A stretch of DNA of 64,000 nucleotides. It comes from Amyelois transitella (lineage: Eukaryota > Arthropoda > Insecta > Lepidoptera > Pyralidae). Below the pieces are notes generated by a model. The model worked only from the letters and a program-made list of their open reading frames with translations. It was not told the origin of the DNA and searched no databases. The position numbers and the translations under genes are program-made. The stretch is taken from NCBI RefSeq assembly GCF_032362555.1, contig NC_083522.1:8534001-8598000 (forward strand), written 5' to 3'. Below, piece by piece: positions 28,189 through 61,915 of the stretch (the first letter of the stretch is position 1; every line of letters begins with the position of its first letter).

Positions 28189-31100
28189 ATGGAATTGGTT
28201 AGTAATCACGCATTTTTTATTTATACTGATGCAATTTCGGTAGTTGATCGAAATCACGATTCGGCTTATCAACAAAAGCTCGGGTTACAATGGTGATGTC
28301 ATTTTGAAGAGTCACGATTTGGGTCATCTTAAACTGTGCCAACCTATTTTTCGATCGACTTCAAATCAGGTGATAATCACTTATTTTGTTACAATGTGAA
28401 TCTATTATTTTTCTAATATTATGTGGAAGTCAATTTATAATCTTGCTATTCTTCTTTAAAACCTAAGCTAGCAACCAGGCGCTATCTCTAAATTTCAGTA
28501 ATATCAGTTAAACGCGACCTTCGTTTCGAGTCTTGTGACTACAAACTCTGTTTACCCCGTAAAGGATAAAGGCGTGATATACGCGTGCGGGTGAAAGGCG
28601 AAGAAAATACGAACTTAACTTCCGTGTATAAGGTGTTTGTGTCGCTGAAATTTCACAGAAAGAATTATTATTAATTATTGTACGGGGCTGCATGTAGTTA
28701 TTTGCATGTCCTGTTAATAATGCTTTTTGGGTAATATTGGGGCTGTCCTGGCGTTACAGTGCCTCAGGAATGTTTGCGTGGGCGCACACTGAAGGTTTCT
28801 CAATTACACTGAGAAAGCTGAGTGCCTGTGAAAGCTCTAACAGTATCTTGAAGGTATTTACAAACCGATGGAATACTGTCTTGATTGGGCGATAGCTCTA
28901 AAAATATTAAAATACCAACCATATTGCGACTTATTTGGTAATATTAAATTGTTACTACCACGACAGGCACCGATGAGGTTGTTAAAATGGCAGAATATTA
29001 TTTGAAAATGTGTTTATTGTTGGAAGGATTGCTGAAGAAGTTACTGACACAATATGGACGTTGTCCGAAATTTAATATTTCAATCTTCCTCTCATCTTAT
29101 TTAAAGGTACACGAATCTCAATTATTGGAAAAATAATCTTTGTCTTTCAGATCATCCTCTCAGCCTTCATCGTGGCATGTTCCGCGGGAGCCCTCCCCAA
29201 CTACCTCCCTCCTCAGTTCAGAACCGCCCCGACCTACTACCAGGAATCCGCCCGGCCAAGAGCAGCTTTTGAACGAAACGCCGCCATCTTGAGATCAGTC
29301 AACGACGGGAACGAGTATGGATACCGATTCGCTTACGAGACTGAAAATGGTATGTAATTCTTTATAAAATAAAAAAATATATATAAATACGGTCACGTCT
29401 ATATCCCTTGTGAGGTAGACAGAGCCAACAGTCTTGAAAAGTCTGATAGGCCTCGTTCAGATATTTGATTAAATAATAGAATTGACTGATGAATGATTCC
29501 AATAGTGACAGGTTGCTAGCTCATCGTTTAAAAAAAGAACTCAAGTTTGTAAGCCTATCCCTTAGTCGCCTATTACGACATCCATGGGAAAGAGATGGAG
29601 TGGTCCTATTCTTTTTTGTATTGGTGCCGGGAACCATTAAATTTTCTTTAAATTTCTATCAGAAAGTTCTCTTTAAATTTTAAATTTCCAGACCTAGTTT
29701 GGGAATAGCTAATAAACTTGGGATTCTTATTTAATCTCAATTCTATCATTAAGCCTAACAGTTGAACGTGGCTTGGCCTGAAGTATGCAGGGATCGTCGC
29801 AAATGGAAAGTTGTGGTCTCTGCCTACCCCTCCGGGAAAGAAGCGTGATTTATTTTTGTATGTATGTATGATTTAACAATAAATTTTGGTTCTTAGATAT
29901 CCATAATTTTGTTGCAAGTGATGTTTGTATCTAATTAAGAATGCTGTTTCAATTTCCATACATGCATAAACAAATTTACTCACTAAATATCGTACTTAAT
30001 TATTCGTATACTAGGAATTTTGAATTCATTAGTGTCCTTTTAATTTGACACTGGGCTCATGATTTTGACTTATTTGTATCACTTCAAACTTCGTCATACT
30101 CAAGTAAAGAATATTTAAGCAATTAAAAGAGGAAAGAAAAAACATAACTAGTAAATATTATAGGTATGCTGAGTGGTTCCCGGCAGCAGTACAAAAAAGA
30201 ATAGGACCACTCCATCTTTTTCCCATGGATATCGTAAAAGGCGACTAAGGGATAGGCTTACAAACTTGGGATTCTTTTTTAGGCGATGGGCTAGCAACCT
30301 GTCACTATTTGAATCTCAATTCTATCATTAAGCCAAATAGCTGAAAGTGGCCATTCAGTCTTTTCAAGACTGTTGGCTCTGATATAGACGTGACCTTATG
30401 TATGTATGTACATATGTAGTAAATATTATAAACTATACAGGTAATAAATGTTTGTTTTATATTCGCCGTAGTATATAATATTCGAATTTAGTATAACTGA
30501 AGTTAATTTTATTAGAAACTAGTTTTGTTGTCGGCGTCTGCGCCCGCGTGTTTGTCGTTTTTTTTTTAGTATTTAAGTGGTTGATTAAATAAAAAAAAGG
30601 ATCCTATGTTAGAACGCGGATTTTTAAACTGCATACTAAATTTCATTCGAATTGGTTCAGCTGTTAAAGCGGAACAAACACACAGGCAGACTTTCCCATT
30701 AATAATATTTGTAAGGGATATTAAACTTGTTAAGAGATATTAAATTATTTTGACGTCAACCAATGTTGTTAAACCATACGTTTTGACAATTATTAAGCGA
30801 TATGAAGTATCCTATAATAATGAATAAAAATTTTGTTTTTTTTTTGAAACGATAAAACATTACCTAACAAAATAAAAAAATATATATTCCAGGTATCCAA
30901 GCCGAGGAATCCGGTCAAGAAGCCAACGGTATCCAAGCTCAAGGCAGTTACTCATACACCGGAGACGATGGCCAGGTCTACAGCGTGAGGTACACAGCTG
31001 GCGCCAACGGCTTCCAGGCCGAAGGAGGCCATCTGCCTACCCCCCCACCACTACCTGAAGCGATAGCCAAGGCTTTACAGGAGAATGCCCGTGATGAAGC

Positions 31101-32266
31101 TAATGGCGTCTTTGATGATGGTAAGTTAACAGCTCTTCTGCAGTACTGGTTTTCTTGTGGAATTCGTAAGAGATTACTAAGGTAATAAGCGCTATCACCT
31201 AATGGTTCTTTATAAAAAGGATCACTAAGGATGGGTGCGACCACAAAAATTCCGGACTCGTGCTAGAAGTAATTGGAATATTTAATACATACATATGATC
31301 ACGTCTATATCCCTTGCGGGGTAGACAGAGCCAACAGTCTTGAAAAGACTGAATGGCCACGTTCAGCTATTTGGCTTAATGATAGAACCGAGATTCAAAT
31401 AGTGACAGGTTGCTAGCCCATCGCCTAAAAGAGGAATCCTAAGTTTATAAGCCTATCCCTTAGTCGCCTTTTACGACATCCATGGGAAAGAGATGGAGTG
31501 GTCCTATTCTTTTTTGTAATAGTGCCGGGAACCACACGGCACCTTTATTTAATTAATCAATTTTATTATTCCGACTACATAAATAAGAAAGACGAGAAAC
31601 TGGTTTCCAGTACCTACCAATATAAAAAAATAGGACCACTTCATCTCTTTCCCATGGATGGCGTTAAAGAAAACTTTGGGATTCTTTTTTTAGGCGATGG
31701 AATAGCGACCCGTCACTATCTAAATATCAATTCTATACATACATATTATCACGTCTATATTCGTTAGGGGAAGACAGAGCCAACAGTCTTGTAAAGACTG
31801 ATAGGCCACGTTCAGCTATTTGGCTTTAAGATAGAATTGAGATTCAAATAGTGACAGGTTGCCAGCCCATCGCCTAAAAGAAGAATCCCAAGTTTATAAT
31901 GCCTAGCCCTTAGTCGCCTTTTACAACATCCATGGGAGAGAGATGGGAGTGGTCCTATTCTTTTTTCTATTGGTGCCGGGAACTTCACGGCACAATCAAT
32001 TCTATTACTTCACATATCAATTCTATCACTGAGCCTAACAGCTGAACGTGGCCTATCAGTCTTTCAAGAATGCTGGCTCTGTCTACCCCGCAAGGGATAT
32101 AGACGTGATTATATGAATAAATGGATGAACTTTAATTAAAATTTCAGGAAGCTACCACGACGGTAAATACGAGAACTCGGGCTCCGGAGTGGTACTTGCG
32201 CGTGCGCAGTACCAACCTTCCAGACAGTACCTCGCTCCAGGGTTCAGACAAGGATACCGCTATTGA
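28189..32266 (+). CDS. Gene A: RR-1 cuticular protein, 184 aa, four exons
   Basis: Exons read as 28189-28197, 29151-29349, 30893-31120 and 32148-32266 (555 nt, frame closed by TGA); all introns are GT-AG. Exon 1 is ATGGAATTG followed by donor GTTAGT, which fixes the start 63 bases after a TATA box. Residues 1-17 form a hydrophobic signal peptide ending SAGA. Residues about 59-122 are the extended Rebers-Riddiford type 1 domain: [12 protein letters not shown], then [20 protein letters not shown] and HLPTPPP. This domain binds chitin in family members, so the product is expected in the soft procuticle. The C-terminus has RQYLAP and ends in RYRY-like GYRY. Introns 2 and 3 hold SA insertions. The spacer encoded before the domain is short and Tyr/Pro-rich. 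Seen: frame, splice sites, motifs. Inferred: expression in epidermis and location. Confidence 0.93.
29389..29636 (-). mobile_element. SA copy in gene A intron 2
   Basis: Starts 40 bases after the donor site; GGTCACGTCTATATCCC to GGTGCCGGGAACCA. Confidence 0.85.
29700..29870 (+). mobile_element. SA-L chimera 3, in gene A intron 2
   Basis: SA middle (AATAAACTTGGGATTC to GTTGAACGTGGC) joins L (GAAGTATGCAGGGATCGTCG) and ends TGTATGTATGTATG. Confidence 0.8.
30168..30413 (+). mobile_element. SA copy in gene A intron 2
   Basis: Head GAGTGGTTCCCGGCA, tail TTATGTATGTATGTACAT; 15 bases of the tail stem region lost. Confidence 0.85.
30515..30720 (-). mobile_element. Helitron-like fragment in gene A intron 2
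   Basis: TTTCATTCGAATTGGTTCAG and AACACACAGGCAGAC-type text resembles the HEL3 layout; ends not clean. Confidence 0.45.
30735..30835 (+). mobile_element. LT2 3' end in gene A intron 2
   Basis: TTGACGTCAACCAATGTTG to CCTATAATAATGAATAAAAA. Confidence 0.7.
31286..31542 (-). mobile_element. SA copy in gene A intron 3
   Basis: ACATACATATGATCACG to AACCACACGGCAC, little diverged. Confidence 0.9.
31606..32116 (+). mobile_element. SA copy split by another SA copy, gene A intron 3
   Basis: Head side 31606-31725 and tail side 32006-32116 are one + element interrupted at TCAATTCTAT. Confidence 0.8.
31737..31994 (-). mobile_element. SA copy with 11-base target duplication
   Basis: ATCAATTCTAT at 31726-31736 is repeated at 31995-32005, bracketing a 258-base minus copy. 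Confidence 0.88.
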
Positions 32267-34904: not shown

Positions 34905-37900
34905 ATGAAGTTGGTTAGTGGCTGTGTTTATTATTCATAAATATTTTTCGGTAGAAATGTGTGTGTGTTCGAATTTTGTGGACTTTTTTAATAAAAGGAT
35001 ATCAAATTTTGTAACATAAATTACATTTAAGAAATCAGATTTCTAAATTCAGTCAGCTTAAAAATCTTATATGTAGTGATTGATTTATTGAATAAAATTT
35101 TCAAAGAGGAGGCGAAGCTCTTTTCTCTTTAAGAAAGATTAAATGATTTTTCGATTATCTTTTTCATATAATAATTTAGTATTCAGAAAAGACAATTTTC
35201 TGGCATTATTCGATTCTAAAGTGAAAATCAGGCATGCCTACTCTACAAATCTCGAATATTCATTTTACAAAAATGTCAATTAATTTTATTAATAAAATTT
35301 ATTCTAAATCATAATTTTAGGTCAAATCCTTTATAATCTCCGCCATCATAGCCCTTGCGTCGTCAGGGCAGGTATTCACCGGCACCAACTTCCCAAACCG
35401 TCCAACCCGAGGGTTCACGGCCGCAGAACAACAAAGGCAGTTGTTACAACGTCAACAGGCCGCGCCAAAACGGCAACAGGCAGAACGACAAAGACAACAA
35501 AATCAGTTACAACAAACCGCCCCAGAACGTCAATATCGCGCGCCAGAATTACAATATGCCGCGCCGCAATTACAATATGCCGCGCCGCAATTACAATATG
35601 CCGCGCCGCAATTACAGCAGGCCATGATTGAACTGCAACCGTCAGCGCCAGAACAACAATATGGAGTGCCTGAATTGCAATTTGCCGCGCCACAAATGCA
35701 ACACGCTGGTCCACAACAATTGCAACAGGTCACGCCACAACAGTTCCAGGTACTATTAATTGTGTTTTATGAATTGATTTATGTAATTTTATTTACAAAA
35801 CTAGAAAGAAAAACTCACGACAAACAAACATATTTTATTTATATCGAATCAAATATAACAAATAATTTAGTTAAAAGTATTTATTCTTAAATAACTTTAA
35901 TTGAACATTACATTACATTTTAGATTGATAAATAAATTAATTTCAGCCAATTCCTGAATCCGGCTTTCAACCAATCATTCCACAGCAGCCAGTTATTCAG
36001 CAGGCTATGCCTCAACATCTTCAAGTAAGCCAACCCAGGCCACAGTTACAACTGAGGCCAGAACTACAGCAACAACAGGCCAGAACGGAGCAGTCTGCAA
36101 GAATTTTGAGTTATATCAATGAAAATGATGGACGCAATTATAGATACGCATACGAGACTGAAAATGGTAATCATTCATTTGTTCCTCTTCATACATACAT
36201 ACAATCACGTCTATATCCCTGGCGGGGTAGACAGAGCCAACAGTTTGGAAAGACTGATAGGCCACGTTCAGCTTTGGCTTAATGATAGAATTAGCCATAG
36301 CCCATCGCCTAAATGAACTCCAAGTCTATCCCTCAGTCGCCCTTTACTTACACTTTAGTGTAAACATATTTTTATTTATGATAAATTTTATGTCGATTTG
36401 TATCAATATCTAAGTAGATATGGTTCTAAGTAATGATATTTGAAATTGAATTTTAGATAGCTTGAACCCAGGTCATACAATGGTTTTTTTCGAAAAACTC
36501 TCTTTAACTTCTATGAAATACTTCAAAATGATCTATCGATTCTAGGAATCAGAGCACAAGAAGCTGGACAAACCATTAAAGGGACGCAAGCGCAGGGCGA
36601 GTACTCGTACACTGGTAATGATGGTCAGACCTACACTGTGAGGTACACAGCTGACGAGAACGGGTTCAGACCCCAAGGAGACCATCTGCCAACCCCCCCT
36701 CCCATTCCTGAAGCCATAGCTAAGGCTATTGAACAGAATGCCCAGGATGCAGCCAATGGTATTTTTGATGATGGTAATTATTTATAAACTTATAGCATTT
36801 TATCAACACAGAATGTATTTAATATTCCATCGAACTGATAGATAAATTAGTTTGAGTACTTGTGTGTACTACGTACTTTGACCCTCGACACCGATGTGAG
36901 TAATCCTGCACATTTAGGAAACTGGGCGTCAAATCATGATCCATATGGATTAGGTTCCCTTTAAATGGTTAGGAGATAAGACTGGAGTCGGATCTTGTAC
37001 AAACCCGACTTTGGTAGGTATTCCACGACCATCGTAGGCCAATCCAGAATTTGGTTTAATGTGCACCCCGGGCTCCAAATTTGAAGATTTAACCGCCAGG
37101 ACTTACAGGAAAAATAAAAGAACGTATTGACGAATTATATTGTACCAATATTTATGAAATATCTAATTCTTAATAAATATTTTATTTTAGGCTCGTACAA
37201 AGAACAGTCGAACCAAGGTTTACAGCAGCAGAACAACTCTCAACTAAGTGGCAACTTTCAACTGAGCGGTAATGTCCAGCAACTAGGCAATCACCAACAG
37301 AACGCCAATATTCAACAGGTAAACAACTACCAACAAATTGGTAACGTGCAACAAGGCAGCAACTTCCAACAAAATGCCAACGTCCAACAGGCTGGCAACT
37401 ATCAGCAAGTAAGCAATGTCCAACAGGGTGGCAACTACCAACAAATTGGCAATGTTCAACAGGGTAGCAACTACCAAGTAATCGAAAATCTGCAACAAAG
37501 TGGCAACAGTCAGCAAAGTGGGAACTATCAGCAAATTGCCAATCTCCAACAAGGTGGCAACTACCAAGATATTACCAATCTCCAACAGGGTGGCATCGTC
37601 CAAAAAAATGCCAACGTACAACAAAACGGCAACATCCAACAAATTAACAACCTTCAACAGGGTGGAAACTACCAAGAAATTGGAAATTTCCAACAAAGTG
37701 GCAACATCCAACAAATAAACAACGTTCAAGAGGGAGGCAACTATCAACAGTCTGGCAATGTTCAACAGGGCGGCAACACCCAGCAAAGTACCAACAACCA
37801 ACAGGGTAACAACTTTCAGCTGGGGGAAAACTACCAATTCCAACAGCTCTTTCAACAGCCAATGAATAACCAACAAATGTCAATAGTTGTTGATGGCAAC

Positions 37901-37927
37901 ACAGATTTTCAGTACAGCTATTTTTAA
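34905..37927 (+). CDS. Gene B: RR-1 cuticular protein with 33-unit Q/N hexapeptide tail, 540 aa
   Basis: Five exons: 34905-34913, 35321-35749, 35947-36166, 36546-36773, 37191-37927 (1623 nt, stop TAA). The start ATGAAGTTG|GTTAGT lies 76 bases after a TATA box. Residues 1-20 are a signal peptide. Residues about 24-200 are a Gln/Pro/Ala-rich arm with YAAPQLQ heptads. Residues about 207-272 are the RR-1 domain ([17 protein letters not shown], then [29 protein letters not shown]), followed by GIFDDG at the exon 4/5 junction. Residues 316-513 are 33 hexads of type GN(Y/V)QQx; the last 27 residues are non-repetitive and end FQYSYF. RR-1 proteins are usually 100-250 aa, so this is unusually long. 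A chitin-binding module joined to an assembly-prone Q/N module suggests a structural cross-bridge; that role is inference. The extra intron splits the Q-rich arm. Confidence 0.92.
35547..35609 (+). repeat. Three perfect 21-base tandem repeats coding YAAPQLQ
   Basis: Three identical 21-base units starting at 35547, 35568 and 35589 inside exon 2 of gene B. Diverged heptads continue on both sides (APELQ, APEQQ, VPELQ). Exact identity suggests recent expansion and possible length polymorphism. Confidence 0.9.
36190..36345 (-). mobile_element. SA fragment in gene B intron 3
   Basis: Begins 24 bases after the donor; CATACATACAATCACG to AGTCGCCC. Confidence 0.78.
36870..37110 (+). mobile_element. 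CS SINE remnant in gene B intron 4
   Basis: TGGTTAGGAGATAAGACTGG, CTTGTACAAACCCGAC and CCAATCCAGAATTTGG keep the CS order. Confidence 0.5.
37250..37843 (+). repeat. 33 in-register hexapeptide repeats (18-base units) in gene B
   Basis: 198 codons divide into 33 hexads with no gap. Gln occupies position 4 in all 33 and Asn position 2 in 32. Position 3 is mostly Y, V, F, I or L. Position 6 tends to alternate between I/V/S and G, giving a 12-residue super-unit such as [15 protein letters not shown] units have diverged at the third base, so the protein pattern is kept beyond simple slippage. Confidence 0.95.
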
Positions 37928-47400: not shown

Positions 47401-50400
47401 CATAGCCAACTTATATGGAGAAGAAGTCACTGAAAATATTTTTGTCAAACGGATATATCGTACACTCGAATCCCGATGCTGCTATGTCATAACGTGCTAC
47501 CTTTTTAAAGCATCTGAAACAAGTCCAGCACTGTCTAATTCAGTAATTCTAGCCCCTGAATTAGCTCTTATCCACATCCCTCATTGTTCATTATAGGCAT
47601 TCTTAAAGGGTTTCATGAACGACCTGTCCAAAGGCTGGGGTTTTGAACGATGAACGACCTTTTTTCGCCCTCACCATTATTAATATATAACATTATCTGA
47701 AACCATAAAATGGAATTTTTAACATCAATGAAAATAAAATAATTGCAGAAAAATAATTGTTCGGTCATAGGGGAAAATATACTGTTCGGTACTAGGGGAT
47801 CATAGAACAAAATTAATATGAGAATTAACTCAAACGTACTTATTTAATATTAGTTTTAAGTACTAAAATTGCATTAATACTTACCAAAGACAACTTAAAC
47901 TCTAATAGGAATGTCTCCACTCGTAAATCTTGTAACAACCGGTATTTTCTTCTGTACACGATACGTCACGTTCCCGCGGAAAATGAATGCATCTCCTCTT
48001 ACGGCCGCTCTGAGCATAACTGACTGCTGCAGCGCCGCCCGCGGCTTATCTAGCTTTGTCTCTTTCTTTCTCACAACAAATGACCGCTTTCGTTTGCTTA
48101 TTTTTAAAGGTACCGTATTCGTTCGGTACTACCTGCCGTTCGGCGCTAGGGGACTTCCCCCTAGGTGTTTTTTTTATAAAGGTCAAAGTCAGGTTTGACT
48201 ATAAGACAATATAAATCGACACTGTTAGAAGAAATGTATACCTATTTTTAGTAATCTTTTTTACCGAATGCTTTTGCTTAATAACCCCTTGAATATAATA
48301 CATATTTACTTAAAATTATTTCAAGTATAGGTAAACATAATCGTACTAATAAGTAGGAACAAACATTAACTTCATATAAATTCCCAAAACTTGCAAGTCA
48401 GTTGTAATTTTTTTTTTATTTTTTTCTTAAATATCCGAAATGTTTAAAAAAAGATAATTTCTGAGAAATACCTTAGATCGTAATATCATCGAGGTAGACA
48501 GTGCTTAAAGTCTATGAAATACTTTTTTACACTGATCAACTCATATTTTACCTCCAGGTACTCTTCGCCGCCCTTTTCGGCTTCGCCGCCGCCGGCTTCG
48601 CTGGCTCCTACCCTGAGCAGTCCAACAGGCCCCAAGCCCAGTACGAGAGGAACGCCAGGATCTTAGCCCTGGACTCAGACGTCAAGGAGGACTCCTTCAG
48701 ATATAACTACGAAACTGAAAACGGCATTAAGGCTGAGGAGCAGGGTCATGAGGTGAGTTTGGTTTCGCAAATTTTGATTTGATTTTGTAAAAAAACATAC
48801 ATACATACATATGGTCACGTTTATATCCCATGCGGGGTAGACAGAGCCAACAGTCTTGAAGACTAAATGGCCAAGTTCAGCTATTTGGCTTAATGATAGA
48901 ATTGAGATTCAAATAGTGACAGGTTGCTTGCCCATCGCCTAAAAGAAGAATCCCAAGTTTATAAGCCTATCTCTTAGTCGCCTTTTACGACATCCATGGG
49001 AAAGAGATGGAGTGGTCCTATTCTTTTTTGTATTGGTGCCGGGAACCACACGGCACAAAAAAAAACTTATTTTTTTTATATATAGTGGAAAATATATACA
49101 ATCACGTTTTTATTTCTAAGGTCTATGTCCATTGCAGGATAGACAGAGCCAATAGCGGAAAACTGATGGCCATGTTCAGCTGTATGGTTTAATAATGGAA
49201 TTGGGATTCAAATAGTGACAGGTTGCTAGCCCATCGTTTAAGAGAAAAATCCCAAGTTTATATGCATATCCCTTAGTCACCTTTTACGGGACCTCCGGAA
49301 TATGGGAAATGGATGGAGAGGACCTATTATTTTTTCTATTGGTGCCAGGAACTTACGTCAAAATTTTACTTTATGATTGCAATGTGAAATAAAATTTGAT
49401 CATTTATTTTTATTAAAATTATTATTTTAAATATATAAACAGATATTTAATGAATTCAGTTTCGCAAAGCGTTGAAAGGTTAATCTGATTTATAAAACCA
49501 AAGTGCTTAAATTATAATATTTATAATTCATGTATGGTAGGTGGAAAATGTCAAGAATAAATGATCATTATTCATATTCAGTTTTACATAAATTTTAATA
49601 TAAAATTATAGATTGGTCGATAACTATAGAGTTCCTGAAAAAAGTACATTTATTTATTTAAACCTTATTGCATTAAAAATAATTTACAACAGGTGCACTT
49701 TATGCCATAAGGCATTCTATTCTAGTCGAACCTTCAGACCAAAATGAGATTTACTTTTACTCAACTACAAATTACATACATTCATATGGTCACGTCTATA
49801 TACCTTATAGTGTAGACAGAGCCAACAGTCTTGAAAAGACTGACAGGCCAAGTCCAGCTATTTGACTTAATGTTAGAATTGAGATTCAAATAGCGACAGG
49901 TTGCTAGCCCATCGCCTAAGAAAAGAATCTCACGTTTGTATGCCTATCTCTTTAGTCGCCTTTTACGACATCCATAGGAAAGAGATGCAGTAGTACACGA
50001 CACTACTACTTACTATTAAAAATATCCCACAATCCAAAATTAATCTTTAATTTTGCTTCGCATGTAATCATGAACGTCTGAAGCTAAAATCATAACCCAC
50101 TTTTTTAAGCCCAGTTAGTCAAAAGGAGTTTCTCATTCATTCAAAGGCTGGACATAACTATGGGAACTAATCTACACTGAATGTGACCTATGCTTCAGTA
50201 TTACTGTGACCTATGAGTGGTATTACAGCAGTCGCCAAAAGGTCAATGACCAGGTCTTAGAAATGTCAACGAAGTCAGGTGAACACATTATACAAGTGAC
50301 ATAGTATTAGACAGGTTGGTCAATGAAGTAATGAATATTGCGTATATGGTCATCATTTTGATTAATTTGATGTTAATGTTTCAAAAATGGTAAAGCGCGT

Positions 50401-53400
50401 GTCGGAATAACATGACATACATAAATATAGTCACGTCTATATCTCTTGTGGGGGTAGACAGAGCCAACAGTCCTAAAGAGACTGACAGGCCACGTTCAGC
50501 TGTTTGGCTTTATGATATAAAAATATGATTGAGAGAAATTAACTGTTATATTTGCAAATTATTGTTATTATGCAATAGAGATTTTAAGTAATTTTTCATA
50601 TCTGTATTCATCTACTTGTCAGTATTCTTGGTATTTTACATACACAAAGGTATCATACATCTTATAAAGTATTACTTTCAGTGAGATTAAAAGAAAGATC
50701 ACGTCTTAATGAAAAATGAACGTTTTTCATTGTTTTCATTCTTTGATTTATAACTTTATAATTTATGACATACATACACACAATCACGTCTATATCCCTT
50801 ATGGATAGACAGAGCTAACTGTCTTGAAAGGACTGATAGCCATATGGTGTTCACCTATATGTTTATATGATGATAGGTTGGTACGATTGATAGAAATTCC
50901 CGCAGGAACAGAATTATTGGCAGGCTCTTTTTTAGATGAAGCTAACCTTAATTTATTATGATTTAGCCTTGAAATTCCAATACCAATTTTGGGAGAATTG
51001 ATTTATAAACACTTAACGTTAGACATTTCATATAATGATTGCTCTAGCGTCAGTGAGGGCAAATTTAATGATTATGTTTCAAAGGGCACATGACTGTATG
51101 TTAGTTTGACATTTAAAATTTATGATTTAGTAGATCAATGATACAGGATGTGCTCAGATATTTATTTATTTGAATTATTTCCTTTCCATTTGATGTCAAT
51201 GATTTATTACTATCTGGAATTCGCGTGAACTTGAAAATATTTCAAGTATTAAGATCTGCCTGAATGCCGCTTTGATAAATAACTTGGAAAAAATATTATA
51301 TTTTTGTGGCAGATTTTTTCCACGAGTTATGGTGACTTCTTCTAATGGCAGATAATCAGTCCAATCTTATGGTCATTCACTTAAAATGCACAAAAGAGAT
51401 TTCGCTATGTAAAATTTGATGAAAATGCCATTTCATCAATAAAGTTAACGTAATGGACTAAAAAGGATTTTTTAAAGAACATTGCATTTAAGTCTTTTCA
51501 AGACTGTTGGCTCTGTCTACGCCGCAAGGGAAAATGACGTATATTGTATGTAGGACAGAAAAAAACTCAAGTTTGAGTCGGTCATGTCAAAGATTTAATG
51601 ATCGTTATAATGTTATCAGTCAATTTTGCTATAATTTTGTTACATCGAGTTTTTCATATATTCAAACAACATAAATTATTCATTCACGTACCAACCTACC
51701 TGTATTAAATAAATCCCTTTCTCAAATTCCAGGCTGACGGCATCGAAGCCCAGGGTGGTTTCCAATACACCGGTGATGATGGCCAGGTCTACTCCATCAG
51801 CTACGCAGCAGGCCAGGGTGGTTTCCAGCCCCAGGGAGCCCACATCCCGACCCCTCCCCCCGTACCAGAAGAGATCCTGAAGGCTTTGGAGCAGAACGCT
51901 AGAGACGAGGCAGCCGGCATTGTTGATGATGGTATGTGTATCGTATATATGTATATAATCACGTCTATGTTCCACGCGGGGTAGTCAGAGCCAATCATCA
52001 AAAGACTGAAAGGCTACGTTCAGCTGTTTGGCTTTATGATAGAATTGAGATTCAAATAGTGACAGGTTAGGCCAGCCCATCGCCTAAAAGAGGAATCCCA
52101 ATTTTATAAGCCTATCCCCTAGTCGCCTTTTACAACATATATGGGAAAGAGATGGAGTGGTCCTAAACTTTTTACATTGGTGCCGGGAACCACACATGTC
52201 ATCAAACACAAAATGACTATGTCCCATGGGGTTAATGGTATTTTTATGACTGTTGGCTCTGTATACCCCGCAAGGGATATAGACGTGATTATATGTATGT
52301 ATGTACTTAAATAAGCTTAAAAGCTCTGCGTCACGCGTCCAAACTCAGCTTTCACAATGGTTACAAGCAGTTTATGATGCATTAAGGATCTTCACAGGAA
52401 AGAGATGATAAATTATTTTAAACTAAACAAGTAAATAAATTAATGACTGCATGTAGAGGGAGGGGCATAACACGTTTCTAACATCAATAGTTAAGAACAT
52501 TCTTCGAAACGTAGGTGTGAATTGTGGGGGCAAGGAATTCTCTGTAAAACTTATGTTACAGCGTGGGAAATGTGCAAATATAAAATGACTTTAATTATAT
52601 ATAAAACTAGCTGTGCCCGCGACTTCGTCCGCGTGGAATAGTTATTTTGGGCATCATTGAAGCCCTCAAGGATTAATAATTTTCTCCGTTTTTTTTTTTC
52701 ACATTTTCCATTATTTCTTCGCTCCTAATAGTTGCAGCGTGATGTTATATAGCCTAAAGCATTCCTTGATAAGTGGTCTATTCAACACAAAAATAGTTTT
52801 TTAATTTTTTAATTCGAACCATTAGTTCCTGAGATTAGCGCGTTCAAACAAACAAACCCTTCAGTTTTATAATACTAGTATAGATTTTAAGAGGCAAACT
52901 TTGCATAGACATATGTGTGGACTTATTCATGCATACGTAATAATACTCCTTTTTCTTGTAGTGGGTAGAGACTGCACAGTCTCATGGCATATTTTTACGC
53001 TTTAAAAAAGTTGGTTCTCAGTTTGACCTGTATGAATGTATGTATGTTTGTTTTTTATGCTTGTTTCGTTAAAGTTATGTATAGGTACTCGAACGTTAGT
53101 CTAGGCCTTCGCATGCCAAAGTTTCTGTAAGCAGTTAACCGCCTTCAAAACAAAAGGTTGTTCTTAGTTTGACCTGTATGTATGTTTGTTCGCGATTATC
53201 TCGCGTTTCGCTGAACCGATTTTGATGCGGTTTTAAGGACAGTGTTTCTTACACTCAGAAGAATGTTTAACCGACCGTCAAAAAAAGAGGATATTGATTG
53301 GAGGCGGTTCTCCTTTTACAAAAGTTTTAATTATATTCGTCCTATCCAGATGAACTAACAACTTGGCCTTCCAGTTTCTATTCCTGTCACCAAGTAAATC

Positions 53401-54536
53401 ATCTATCATAAATTACAACACATTTAACAAATAACAAGACGAAACAAAAGCTGCAATAAGATAATTATATATATCAAGTGTTAGATAATGACCCAAGATT
53501 TATATGTCCAATAGTATGGATATTAAACTTCGTCTGACCTTTCTGTTGCACAATGACCTCTCACTCTGAATTTGCTTGGGAAACCGAGCACAAAAATAAA
53601 ATTGCATTTAATAAACCTCTATTGCATAGACAATAAGATTCTAAATCATTTGAAAATGCAGCGAAATAGTTTTGTATTGGGATTCATAGTGAGGAATTTA
53701 TTTGCGTGTGTCATAATCTTTATTGTATTGTTATTAAGGCTATTTCTTGATTGAAATCTTGTGAGAGGAATTTTGTAAAGGATAATCCACGCTATTGCTG
53801 GGATTTAAATGAATAATAGCAGCTTTTGTCAAACAATGAATGCATGCAGTGAATGGTATAGTGACCAACAGTTAGTAGGATGGAGTACATATTATGAGAA
53901 TTGCATTTTTCCCACTCATTTCGAGATGTATTGTCTTATGATCTGATATCAAATTGTGTTTAATTTTTGTTTTAACCTCGAATACAAAAAATATATTTAT
54001 ATATATCTTAAGATCAACTTATAAAAATTGGTAAACCAATAAGTTTATTTTTTCTTCATAATTTACTTTTCACAGCCGTATTTGTTCTAATCTCGGTTTA
54101 ATTAAACAATTCATTTAAACACAATATACATATAATCACGACTATATCCCTTGCAGGGTAGACAGAGCCAACAGTTTTGAAAAGACTGAAACGCCACGTT
54201 AAGCTGTTTGGCTGAGTGATAGAATTGAGTTTCACAGATTGCTAGCTCATCGCCTAAGAATCCCAGTTTATAAGTCTATCCTTTAGTCGCCTTTTACGAA
54301 ATTCAAGAGGAGTGAATTTTTTTTTCGGTTTTTACTGTCATAGCACATAAGTACCCTGTTTGTACTGTTAAAGCAATTTCAATAACACAAAAATAAAAAA
54401 AATATATCATCTATTTTCAGGTCAATACAACCCCGGCAAATATGGAGACGCCCCTGCTGCGGGTTTTGGCCAACAACAGCAATACGCAAGAGCCCAGGCC
54501 TCAGCTGGCTTCGGAAGACAAACATACAAATACTAA
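44498..54536 (+). CDS. Gene C: RR-1 cuticular protein, 172 aa, four exons over 10 kb
   Basis: Exons 44498-44506, 48558-48752, 51733-51931 and 54421-54536 (519 nt, stop TAA). Start ATGCAGTTG|GTGAGT follows a TATA box by 61 bases. Residues 1-16 are a Phe/Ala-rich signal peptide (ends AGFAGS). A short [14 protein letters not shown] linker precedes the RR-1 domain at about 49-111: [58 protein letters not shown] straddles intron 3; the tail is Gly/Gln/Ala-rich and ends TYKY. Coding exons are GC-rich against AT-rich introns of about 4.1, 3.0 and 2.5 kb filled with transposons. Intron 2 is phase 0 after HE, unlike genes A, B and D. Predicted extracellular chitin-binding cuticle component. Confidence 0.93.
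44521..44935 (-). mobile_element. SA copy and adjoining L tail, gene C intron 1
   Basis: SA 44521-44769 starts 15 bases after the exon 1 donor and stops at GGTGCCGG. L tail follows at 44797 (TACATACATACATAAAATCA). Confidence 0.82.
45110..46150. other. Intron 1 of gene C, AT-rich part
   Basis: No repeat family or coding signal recognised. Confidence 0.45.
46160..46380 (+). mobile_element. CS SINE, head missing, gene C intron 1
   Basis: TTTCAAAGTTATGTACATTAG, GTTGCGGAGGTCAGATGGG, TAAAAACCTGACACCC. Confidence 0.75.
46552..46640 (-). mobile_element. L LINE tail scrap, gene C intron 1
   Basis: CACTCCTTTCCCTGAGGGGT and CTGCATACTTCATTCACTTT. Confidence 0.65.
46859..48161 (-). mobile_element. pogo/Tigger-like DNA transposon relic with TA target duplication
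   Basis: Ends are inverted repeats of about 24 bases (GGGGGAAGTCCC followed by TAG(T/C)GCCGAAC), two mismatches between them, flanked by TA on both sides (46857-46858, 48162-48163). Internal copies of a GTACCGAACA-type motif lie near both ends in matching orientation. It sits in intron 1 of gene C. TA duplication points to the Tc1/mariner-pogo superfamily; the exact family is inference. Confidence 0.8.
47102..47448 (-). pseudogene. Remnant of transposase C-terminus with PHD-like zinc finger, frameshifted
   Basis: A reverse-strand frame (47299-47102) contains [18 protein letters not shown], then AC, C and CDWC: a Cys-rich PHD-like finger with a WIQC core such as is found at the end of some insect pogo-like transposases. 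A Lys/Glu-rich stretch just upstream (47448-47300) is in another frame, so the gene is broken. No DDE catalytic core was recognised, so the element is not autonomous. Confidence 0.65.
48796..49056 (-). mobile_element. SA copy in gene C intron 2
   Basis: ACATACATACATACATATGG to CCACACGGCAC; starts 44 bases after the donor. Confidence 0.9.
49094..49350 (-). mobile_element. Second SA copy in gene C intron 2, older
   Basis: TATACAATCACG to GGTGCCAGGAAC with many differences. Confidence 0.75.
49774..50000 (-). mobile_element. SA copy in gene C intron 2
   Basis: ACATACATTCATATGGTCAC to CCATAGGAAAGAGATG. Confidence 0.8.
50415..50515 (-). mobile_element. SA tail fragment, gene C intron 2
   Basis: GACATACATAAATATAGTCA to GTTTGGCTTTATGAT; 5' truncated. 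Confidence 0.72.
50768..50860 (-). mobile_element. SA tail fragment, gene C intron 2
   Basis: ACATACATACACACAATCAC to CTTGAAAGGACTGATAG. Confidence 0.68.
51950..52305. mobile_element. SA copy (-) and SA tail (+) in gene C intron 3
   Basis: Minus copy 51950-52193 begins 19 bases after the exon 3 donor; plus tail 52245-52300 ends TATGTATGTATG. Confidence 0.8.
52606..52884 (-). mobile_element. HEL1, full length, gene C intron 3
   Basis: ACTAGCTGTGCCCGCGACTT to AATACTAGTATAGA. Confidence 0.82.
52900..54120. other. Gene C intron 3, mixed old repeats
   Basis: TCTCGCGTTTCGCTGAACCG near 53200 resembles an old transposon relic; otherwise no signal. Confidence 0.4.
54124..54310 (-). mobile_element. 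SA fragment close to gene C exon 4
   Basis: ATACATATAATCACGAC to CGCCTTTTACG; ends about 110 bases before the acceptor. Confidence 0.72.
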
Positions 54537-61369: not shown

Positions 61370-61915
61370 GCTTACAAACTTGGATTTATTTAGACTTGGA
61401 TTCTTTTTTTACGCGATAGACTAGCAACCTGTCACTATTTGAATCTCAATTCTATCATTAAACCAAATAGCTGAACGTGGCCATTCATTCTTTTCAAGAC
61501 TGTTGCCTCTGTCTACCCCACAAGGAATATAGACGTGACTATAATATCGCAAAAGGCGACTAAGGGATAGGCTTACAAACTTGGGATTCATTTTTAGGCG
61601 ATGGGCTAGCAACCTGCCACTATTTGAATCTCAATTCTATCATTAAACTAAACAGCTGAACGTGGCCATTCATTATTTTCAAGACTGTTGCCTCTGTCTA
61701 CCCCACAAGGGATATAGACGTGACTATAATATCGCAAAAGGCGACTAAGGGATAGGCTTACAAACTTGGGATTCATTTTTAGGCGATAGGCTAGCAACCT
61801 GCCACTATTTGAATCTCAATTCTATCATAAAGTCAAAAAGCTGAACGTGGCCATTCAGTCTTTTCAAAACTTTTGGCTCTGTCTCCCCCGAAAGGGATAT
61901 AGACGTGACCATTAT
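61370..61915 (+). repeat. SA-derived tandem array, 185-base unit, about three units
   Basis: ATAATATCGCAAAAGGCG occurs at 61541 and 61726; units share GTTGCCTCTGTCTACCCCAC, absent from other SA copies, so they arose by local duplication rather than separate insertions. Confidence 0.9.

Follow-up and report, generated by a model that had tools for sequence, protein, structure and literature searches.

Cuticular proteins of the CPR family with an RR-1 domain (PF00379), which is known in this family to bind chitin, have in common a signal peptide, the RR-1 domain, low-complexity flanks and clustered genes. Here we describe gene B, found in a stretch of 64 kb of the genome of Amyelois transitella (C18:8534001-8598000), which we will call the window. 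It shares the features of the family and differs from it by a long gapless array of hexads rich in Asn and Gln (N/Q) in its tail exon. The silkmoth chorion proteins, which are functional amyloids, have short repeats like the tail of gene B, with a six-residue period; they differ in belonging to the eggshell, in being rich in Gly and in having no RR domain. In curli and other bacterial functional amyloids Asn/Gln ladders are found in a beta-solenoid, with a repeat longer than the hexad of gene B.

Several cuticular proteins in the literature are close to gene B. AgamCPR132 and its Drosophila orthologue drosocrystallin are Gln-rich R&R proteins, as is gene B (PMC2259329, PMC4646701). However, the pair has a Gln run (in AgamCPR132) and RREE repeats, instead of the ordered N-x-Q hexad. 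AgamCPR132, a polyglutamine RR protein, was published with a remark on amyloid (PMC2259329), and drosocrystallin self-associates with calcium into fibre-like structures, which transglutaminase stabilises (PMC4646701). In Tribolium laccase 2 cross-links a cuticular protein of low complexity (PMC4440208), and in the silkmoth chorion short repeated motifs suffice to form amyloid fibrils (PMC2932725). The association of cuticular proteins with one another and with chitin has been called unresolved (PMC5395146).

A preliminary description of this sequence knew of no described cuticular family like it. That was too strong: gene B is an RR-1 member, it lies in a cluster with low-complexity repeats and AgamCPR132 is in print. 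Among the matches listed from the literature outside subscription journals, no title or abstract opening mentions an N/Q hexad protein of the cuticle; peptide strings of the module match two papers, one about the design of yeast prions and one about a peptide from a mushroom.

Gene B and the hexad array of its tail

The spliced frame of gene B has five exons with GT/AG borders (Table 1) and codes for 540 amino acids (aa). The model and its junctions are derived from the genomic sequence: splice borders, open frame and exon homology. PF00379 matches residues 205-270 of the spliced protein with 78.7 bits (cut-off 25), which bears out its identity as an RR protein; we take the subtype to be RR-1 rather than RR-2, as in the preliminary description. 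Following the 9-base exon 1 the N-terminus is hydrophobic and resembles a signal peptide when the spliced frame is read by eye. The protein contains 131 Gln, 58 Asn, 25 Tyr, 7 Lys and no Cys. Judged from its sequence, gene B is a secreted RR-1 cuticular protein of the CPR family.

The tail contains 34 gapless hexads with the consensus G-N-(Y/V)-Q-Q-(I/G). Gln occupies position 4 in all 34 units, and 33 of them have Asn at position 2. The preliminary description had counted 33 hexads without a gap, all of them with Gln 4 and 32 with Asn 2, as we confirm; in this module (37250-37843) one of V/Y/F/L/I occupies position 3 in 29 of the 33 units and Gln position 5 in 25. An extra unit with Asn 2 and Gln 4 (37232-37249) lies upstream and gives the total of 34. 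Such regularity is not due to chance: 32 N-x-Q units share one hexad phase, while the 198 residues of the 33-unit module, shuffled 10,000 times with the best hexad phase counted each time, gave a maximum of 10 and a mean of 3.9.

A longer period of 12 residues, also proposed previously, is only found in part. We divided the residues at position 3 into two classes of our own grouping, Y/F/H and V/L/I. They alternate strictly over units 1-14, slip at unit 15 and are loose later. In 20,000 shuffles of unit order, units at lag 2 share their class in 18 of 32 cases (P 0.026), at lag 1 in 8 of 33 (P 0.05) and at lag 3, which corresponds to 18 residues, in 8 of 31 (P_hi 0.96). Position 6, whose alternation was the first basis of the 12-residue super-unit, alternates only weakly (lag 1, P 0.07; lag 2, P 0.16).

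The codons used in the 34 units indicate that Asn 2 and Gln 4 are maintained. Departures from the modal codon are 10 synonymous and one replacement at position 2 (P 5e-6), 6 and none at position 4 (P 9e-4), 10 and 9 at position 5 (P 0.04); these values come from a neutral codon model with kappa 5 which takes units as independent and they are overstated, because some units arose by duplication. The Nei-Gojobori ratio between all pairs of units is 0.17, a rough value since synonymous differences are near saturation, with more than one per site in two columns. The third-base divergence among units noted earlier is thus real, and constraint on Asn 2 and Gln 4 is supported by the 10:1 and 6:0 counts. 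A minisatellite which is open merely by accident is rejected by the few replacements at these two positions and by the exon homology described below.

Tail exons and private repeats in the cluster

Seven genes of the cluster, including gene B, have a tail exon which starts with G-x-Y and ends in paired aromatic residues; in gene B it starts with G-S-Y and ends with QYSYF. The scan for such exons admitted only candidates with a G-x-Y start and a pyrimidine-rich stretch, and of no fewer than 25 residues. Since it demanded G-x-Y, the starts are not independent evidence, whereas the ends are. It returned the tails of B, C and D, two in L012 and one in L014. Loci L009, L010, L011, L013 and L015 yielded no row, and gene A was missed; the tail in L015 reaches the edge of the locus. 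Because the tail exons of the paralogues share their ends, the repeat exon is very likely joined to the RR-1 exons of gene B, as the preliminary description had it. Genes A, C and D begin and end their tails as gene B does, but these tails are short, of 38-43 aa, and N/Q hexads are present in none of the tails read from the neighbours in the cluster (A, C, D and E).

The closest RR exon within the window belongs to the adjacent gene A, with 68.8% identity over 77 residues; gene D has 56.8% over 88 and gene C 61.5% over 65. Five exons of these neighbours were compared with Pfam at a cut-off of 25 bits and three pass: the second exon of A (57.9), one of C (38.5) and one of D (63). Of the first RR exons, that of C stays below the cut-off at 19.1 bits and that of A has no match. 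In the whole genome of 327 Mb 150 out of 170 candidates underwent scoring, and these match chitin_bind_4, exon by exon.

Genes of this cluster tend to carry private repeats, and the array of gene B is the longest strictly periodic one among the six regions we scored. Over its 204 aa the module has a modal-residue periodicity of z 26.5 at period 6. Two heptad stretches assigned to gene E have z 18.2 and 13.9 at period 7, the N-terminal heptads of gene B 12.5, L010 6.3 and L014 1.8; the six regions were picked by hand and have different lengths, and longer regions give a larger z. In plain modal share the N-terminal heptads of gene E come out more perfect, 0.88 versus 0.63 for the gene B module. 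The two parts of gene E, in L013 and L012, are probably one RR gene, as judged by order and strand; it is the closest analogue of the hexad tail seen in the genome. Another paralogue of the cluster carries a GSQGAF repeat, and a repeat of Anopheles similar to the SRPSQQYGAP-like motifs of L014 is printed in PMC2259329. The tail of gene B is, on sequence grounds, an unusually regular instance of the repeat tails of RR-1 proteins, which neighbouring cuticle genes also have.

A protein search of the 327-Mb genome found no second copy of the array; 9 candidates were scored, the array and two weak matches among them. These two (E 2.4e-5 and 0.02) are minisatellites in L017 and L018, with several frames open through the repeats and no such protein seen. 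Among viral contigs there were 17 pattern matches and among bacterial and archaeal genome contigs 28, with no relatives in either set; neither result bears on conservation in insects.

Predicted fold and possible roles of the tail

When the module is modelled by AlphaFold2 without an alignment, a beta-rich solenoid is returned, as the preliminary description had anticipated. Its mean pLDDT (predicted local distance difference test) is 67, with turns about every 24 residues; one antisense frame used as a control gave 32. This model, which is only suggestive of an amyloid or cross-beta structure, together with the array and its codons leads us to favour, tentatively and with a little less than even confidence, a rod of N/Q beta structure (beta-solenoid or amyloid-like) which is anchored to chitin and associates with itself. 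The hexad array would probably have expanded inside an ancestral short tail exon. The RR-1 domain would hold chitin, as is known for its family, and the C-terminal tail would fold as an elongated beta-solenoid or amyloid-like rod, with the hydrophobic and aromatic residues of position 3 packed inside. Side chains of Asn 2 and Gln 4 would form ladders, both between coils and between molecules, and open edges would allow the tails to join end to end or side by side. The chitin-bound heads would thereby be tied into a fibrous network. An RR-1 head on chitin with tail-tail N/Q ladders is the most likely function. A more specific form is rather unlikely: within an ordinary RR-1 gene cluster, tandem hexad expansion would have produced a chitin-anchored amyloid strut, a secreted N/Q beta-solenoid whose coils take about 24 residues each and which, polymerising as a functional amyloid, binds chitin fibrils directly to one another. 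With its natural and highly regular N/Q hexads attached to a domain that binds chitin, gene B offers a compact, expressible test of whether amyloid-like or solenoid assembly plays a part in the mechanics of insect cuticle, and could serve as a template for materials of chitin and protein.

Several observations weigh against such a rod. The single control is shorter, 129 versus 235 residues, and has a different composition. No residue of the model reaches a pLDDT of 90, and blocks of residues drop from 62 in residues 181-190 down to 31 at the end of the model. AlphaFold2 reportedly models over 40% of perfect repeats of random sequence as beta-solenoids, and gives many of these a high pLDDT (PMC11795689); the prediction is moderate evidence because the program is known to invent solenoids for repeats. 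Solved beta-helix folds (the SufB-SufC-SufD complex and others) served as the comparison for structural matches, and among 39 Foldseek matches listed there is none at E <= 0.001, the best having E 0.2. Tails of paralogues at the equivalent exon position look like ordinary low-complexity sequence rich in G, S and Q.

Pfam was scanned with the module up to E 1, a range in which the HMMER filters drop most matches above about 0.1, and neither the hexapeptide family (Hexapep) nor the curlin repeat was listed. The only entries were NSF and DUF7486; like the designed armadillo-repeat proteins matched in PDB, they are weak or composition-driven and we have set them aside.

We rank as the main rival, possible although somewhat unlikely, a disordered Gln-rich spacer, whose Gln would be joined by transglutaminase to Lys of other cuticle proteins and whose Tyr would be tanned or joined; the hexad regularity would then mean evenly spaced Gln and nothing more. 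The abundance of Gln and Tyr (131 and 25 of 540 residues, with 7 Lys) agrees with this, as do four matches of the transglutaminase N domain above cut-off in the host genome. Stable fibres form in Drosophila when transglutaminase cross-links the R&R protein drosocrystallin (PMC4646701). The RR-1 proteins of the final pellet in Anopheles average 11.7% Gln versus 6.4% in soluble RR-1, but the same paper gives no significant overall relation between solubility class and Gln content (PMC5395146). Moreover, the reactivity of Gln should require neither a fixed hexad frame nor Asn 2, and the model obtained is rich in beta structure rather than disordered. Should the tail be no more than a cross-linking spacer, it would add one further case to the private repeats of cuticle genes. 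Ladder association and cross-linking may also both act, in turn.

Quite unlikely, in our view, is a reading in which unequal crossing-over expanded the array in this lineage as low-complexity sequence without much specific structure, and the tail would only provide bulk and a water-binding polar mass, as in other members of the cluster. The tandem-repeat finder detects nested units of 36, 72, 90 and 126 bases, and several paralogues have differing private repeats (GNGFAQN and QGNxxRx, probably in one gene; GSQGAF). Short repeats reportedly arose independently in distant cuticular paralogues, with drift named as an alternative to adaptation (PMC2932725). Against this stands the excess of synonymous departures at positions 2 and 4, even with their P values overstated.

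A left-handed hexapeptide beta-helix of 11 turns with three hexads per turn, as first proposed, is very improbable: the position-3 classes have a period of 12 and not 18 residues, the modelled turns come about every 24, Pfam up to E 1 lists no hexapeptide family and the structural matches cited for it have a root-mean-square deviation of about 10 to 11.

Features of the window and of related loci

The coordinates of gene B, its array and the related genes are collected in Table 1.

Table 1. Gene B, its hexad array and related cuticular genes
Feature	Position	Strand	Remarks
Gene A, RR-type cuticular	29190-32263	+	split RR domain, short tail exon
Gene A tail exon	~32148-32263	+	ends GYRY; outside the catch of the tail-exon scan, seen separately
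Gene B exon 1	34905..34913	+	9 bases, start codon, MKL; GT donor after; open spliced frame
Gene B exon 2	35321..35749	+	remainder of putative signal peptide, Gln-rich region with heptads of type A-P-Q-L-Q-Y-A; AG/GT borders
Tandem repeat in exon 2	35531-35616		period 21 bases (tandem-repeat finder)
Gene B exon 3	35947..36166	+	Gln/Pro-rich linker, RR-1 domain begins; AG/GT borders, spliced frame open
Gene B exon 4	36546..36773	+	bulk of RR-1 chitin-binding domain; PF00379
Gene B exon 5	37191..37927	+	tail exon; G-S-Y start after phase-1 intron; ends FQYSYF, TAA stop
Hexad array	37232..37843	+	34 gapless units
Unit 15 (GNSQQS)	37502..37519	+	slip of 12-residue phase; coincides with low-confidence solenoid break, model residues 95-99
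Two degenerate flanking units	37844..37879	+	37844-37861 retains Gln 4 only; 37862-37879 retains Asn 2 and Gln 4
Gene C, RR-type cuticular	48600-54534	+	split RR domain, short tail exon
Gene C tail exon	54421	+	38 aa, ends TYKY; G-x-Y start, phase-1 acceptor assumed
Gene D, RR-type cuticular	59632-57626	-	split RR domain, short tail exon
Gene D tail exon	57753	-	43 aa, ends GYKY; G-x-Y start, phase-1 acceptor assumed
Gene E (C18 ~8.6587-8.6612 Mb)	L013:1718-1113 + L012:9125-8660	-	near-perfect GNGFAQN heptads before RR domain, QGNxxRx heptads after; probably one gene
Two tail exons in L012			155 aa, ends GYSF; 568 aa, ends GYYY
Tail exon in L014, RR gene	L014:3208-1850	-	453 aa, ends GYVY; SRPSQQYGAP-like motifs, resilin-repeat-like

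No Rfam family was found in the 64-kb window. It also contains a dispersed repeat with the core GGTAGAYAGAGCCAACA, which we take to be probably a lepidopteran short interspersed nuclear element. This core occurs 44 times in the 64 kb with up to two mismatches, and never in 100 shuffles; one example is found in intron 3 of gene B (36226-36242). At 61394-61909 a 185-base unit which holds the same core is repeated in tandem, with about 2.8 copies.
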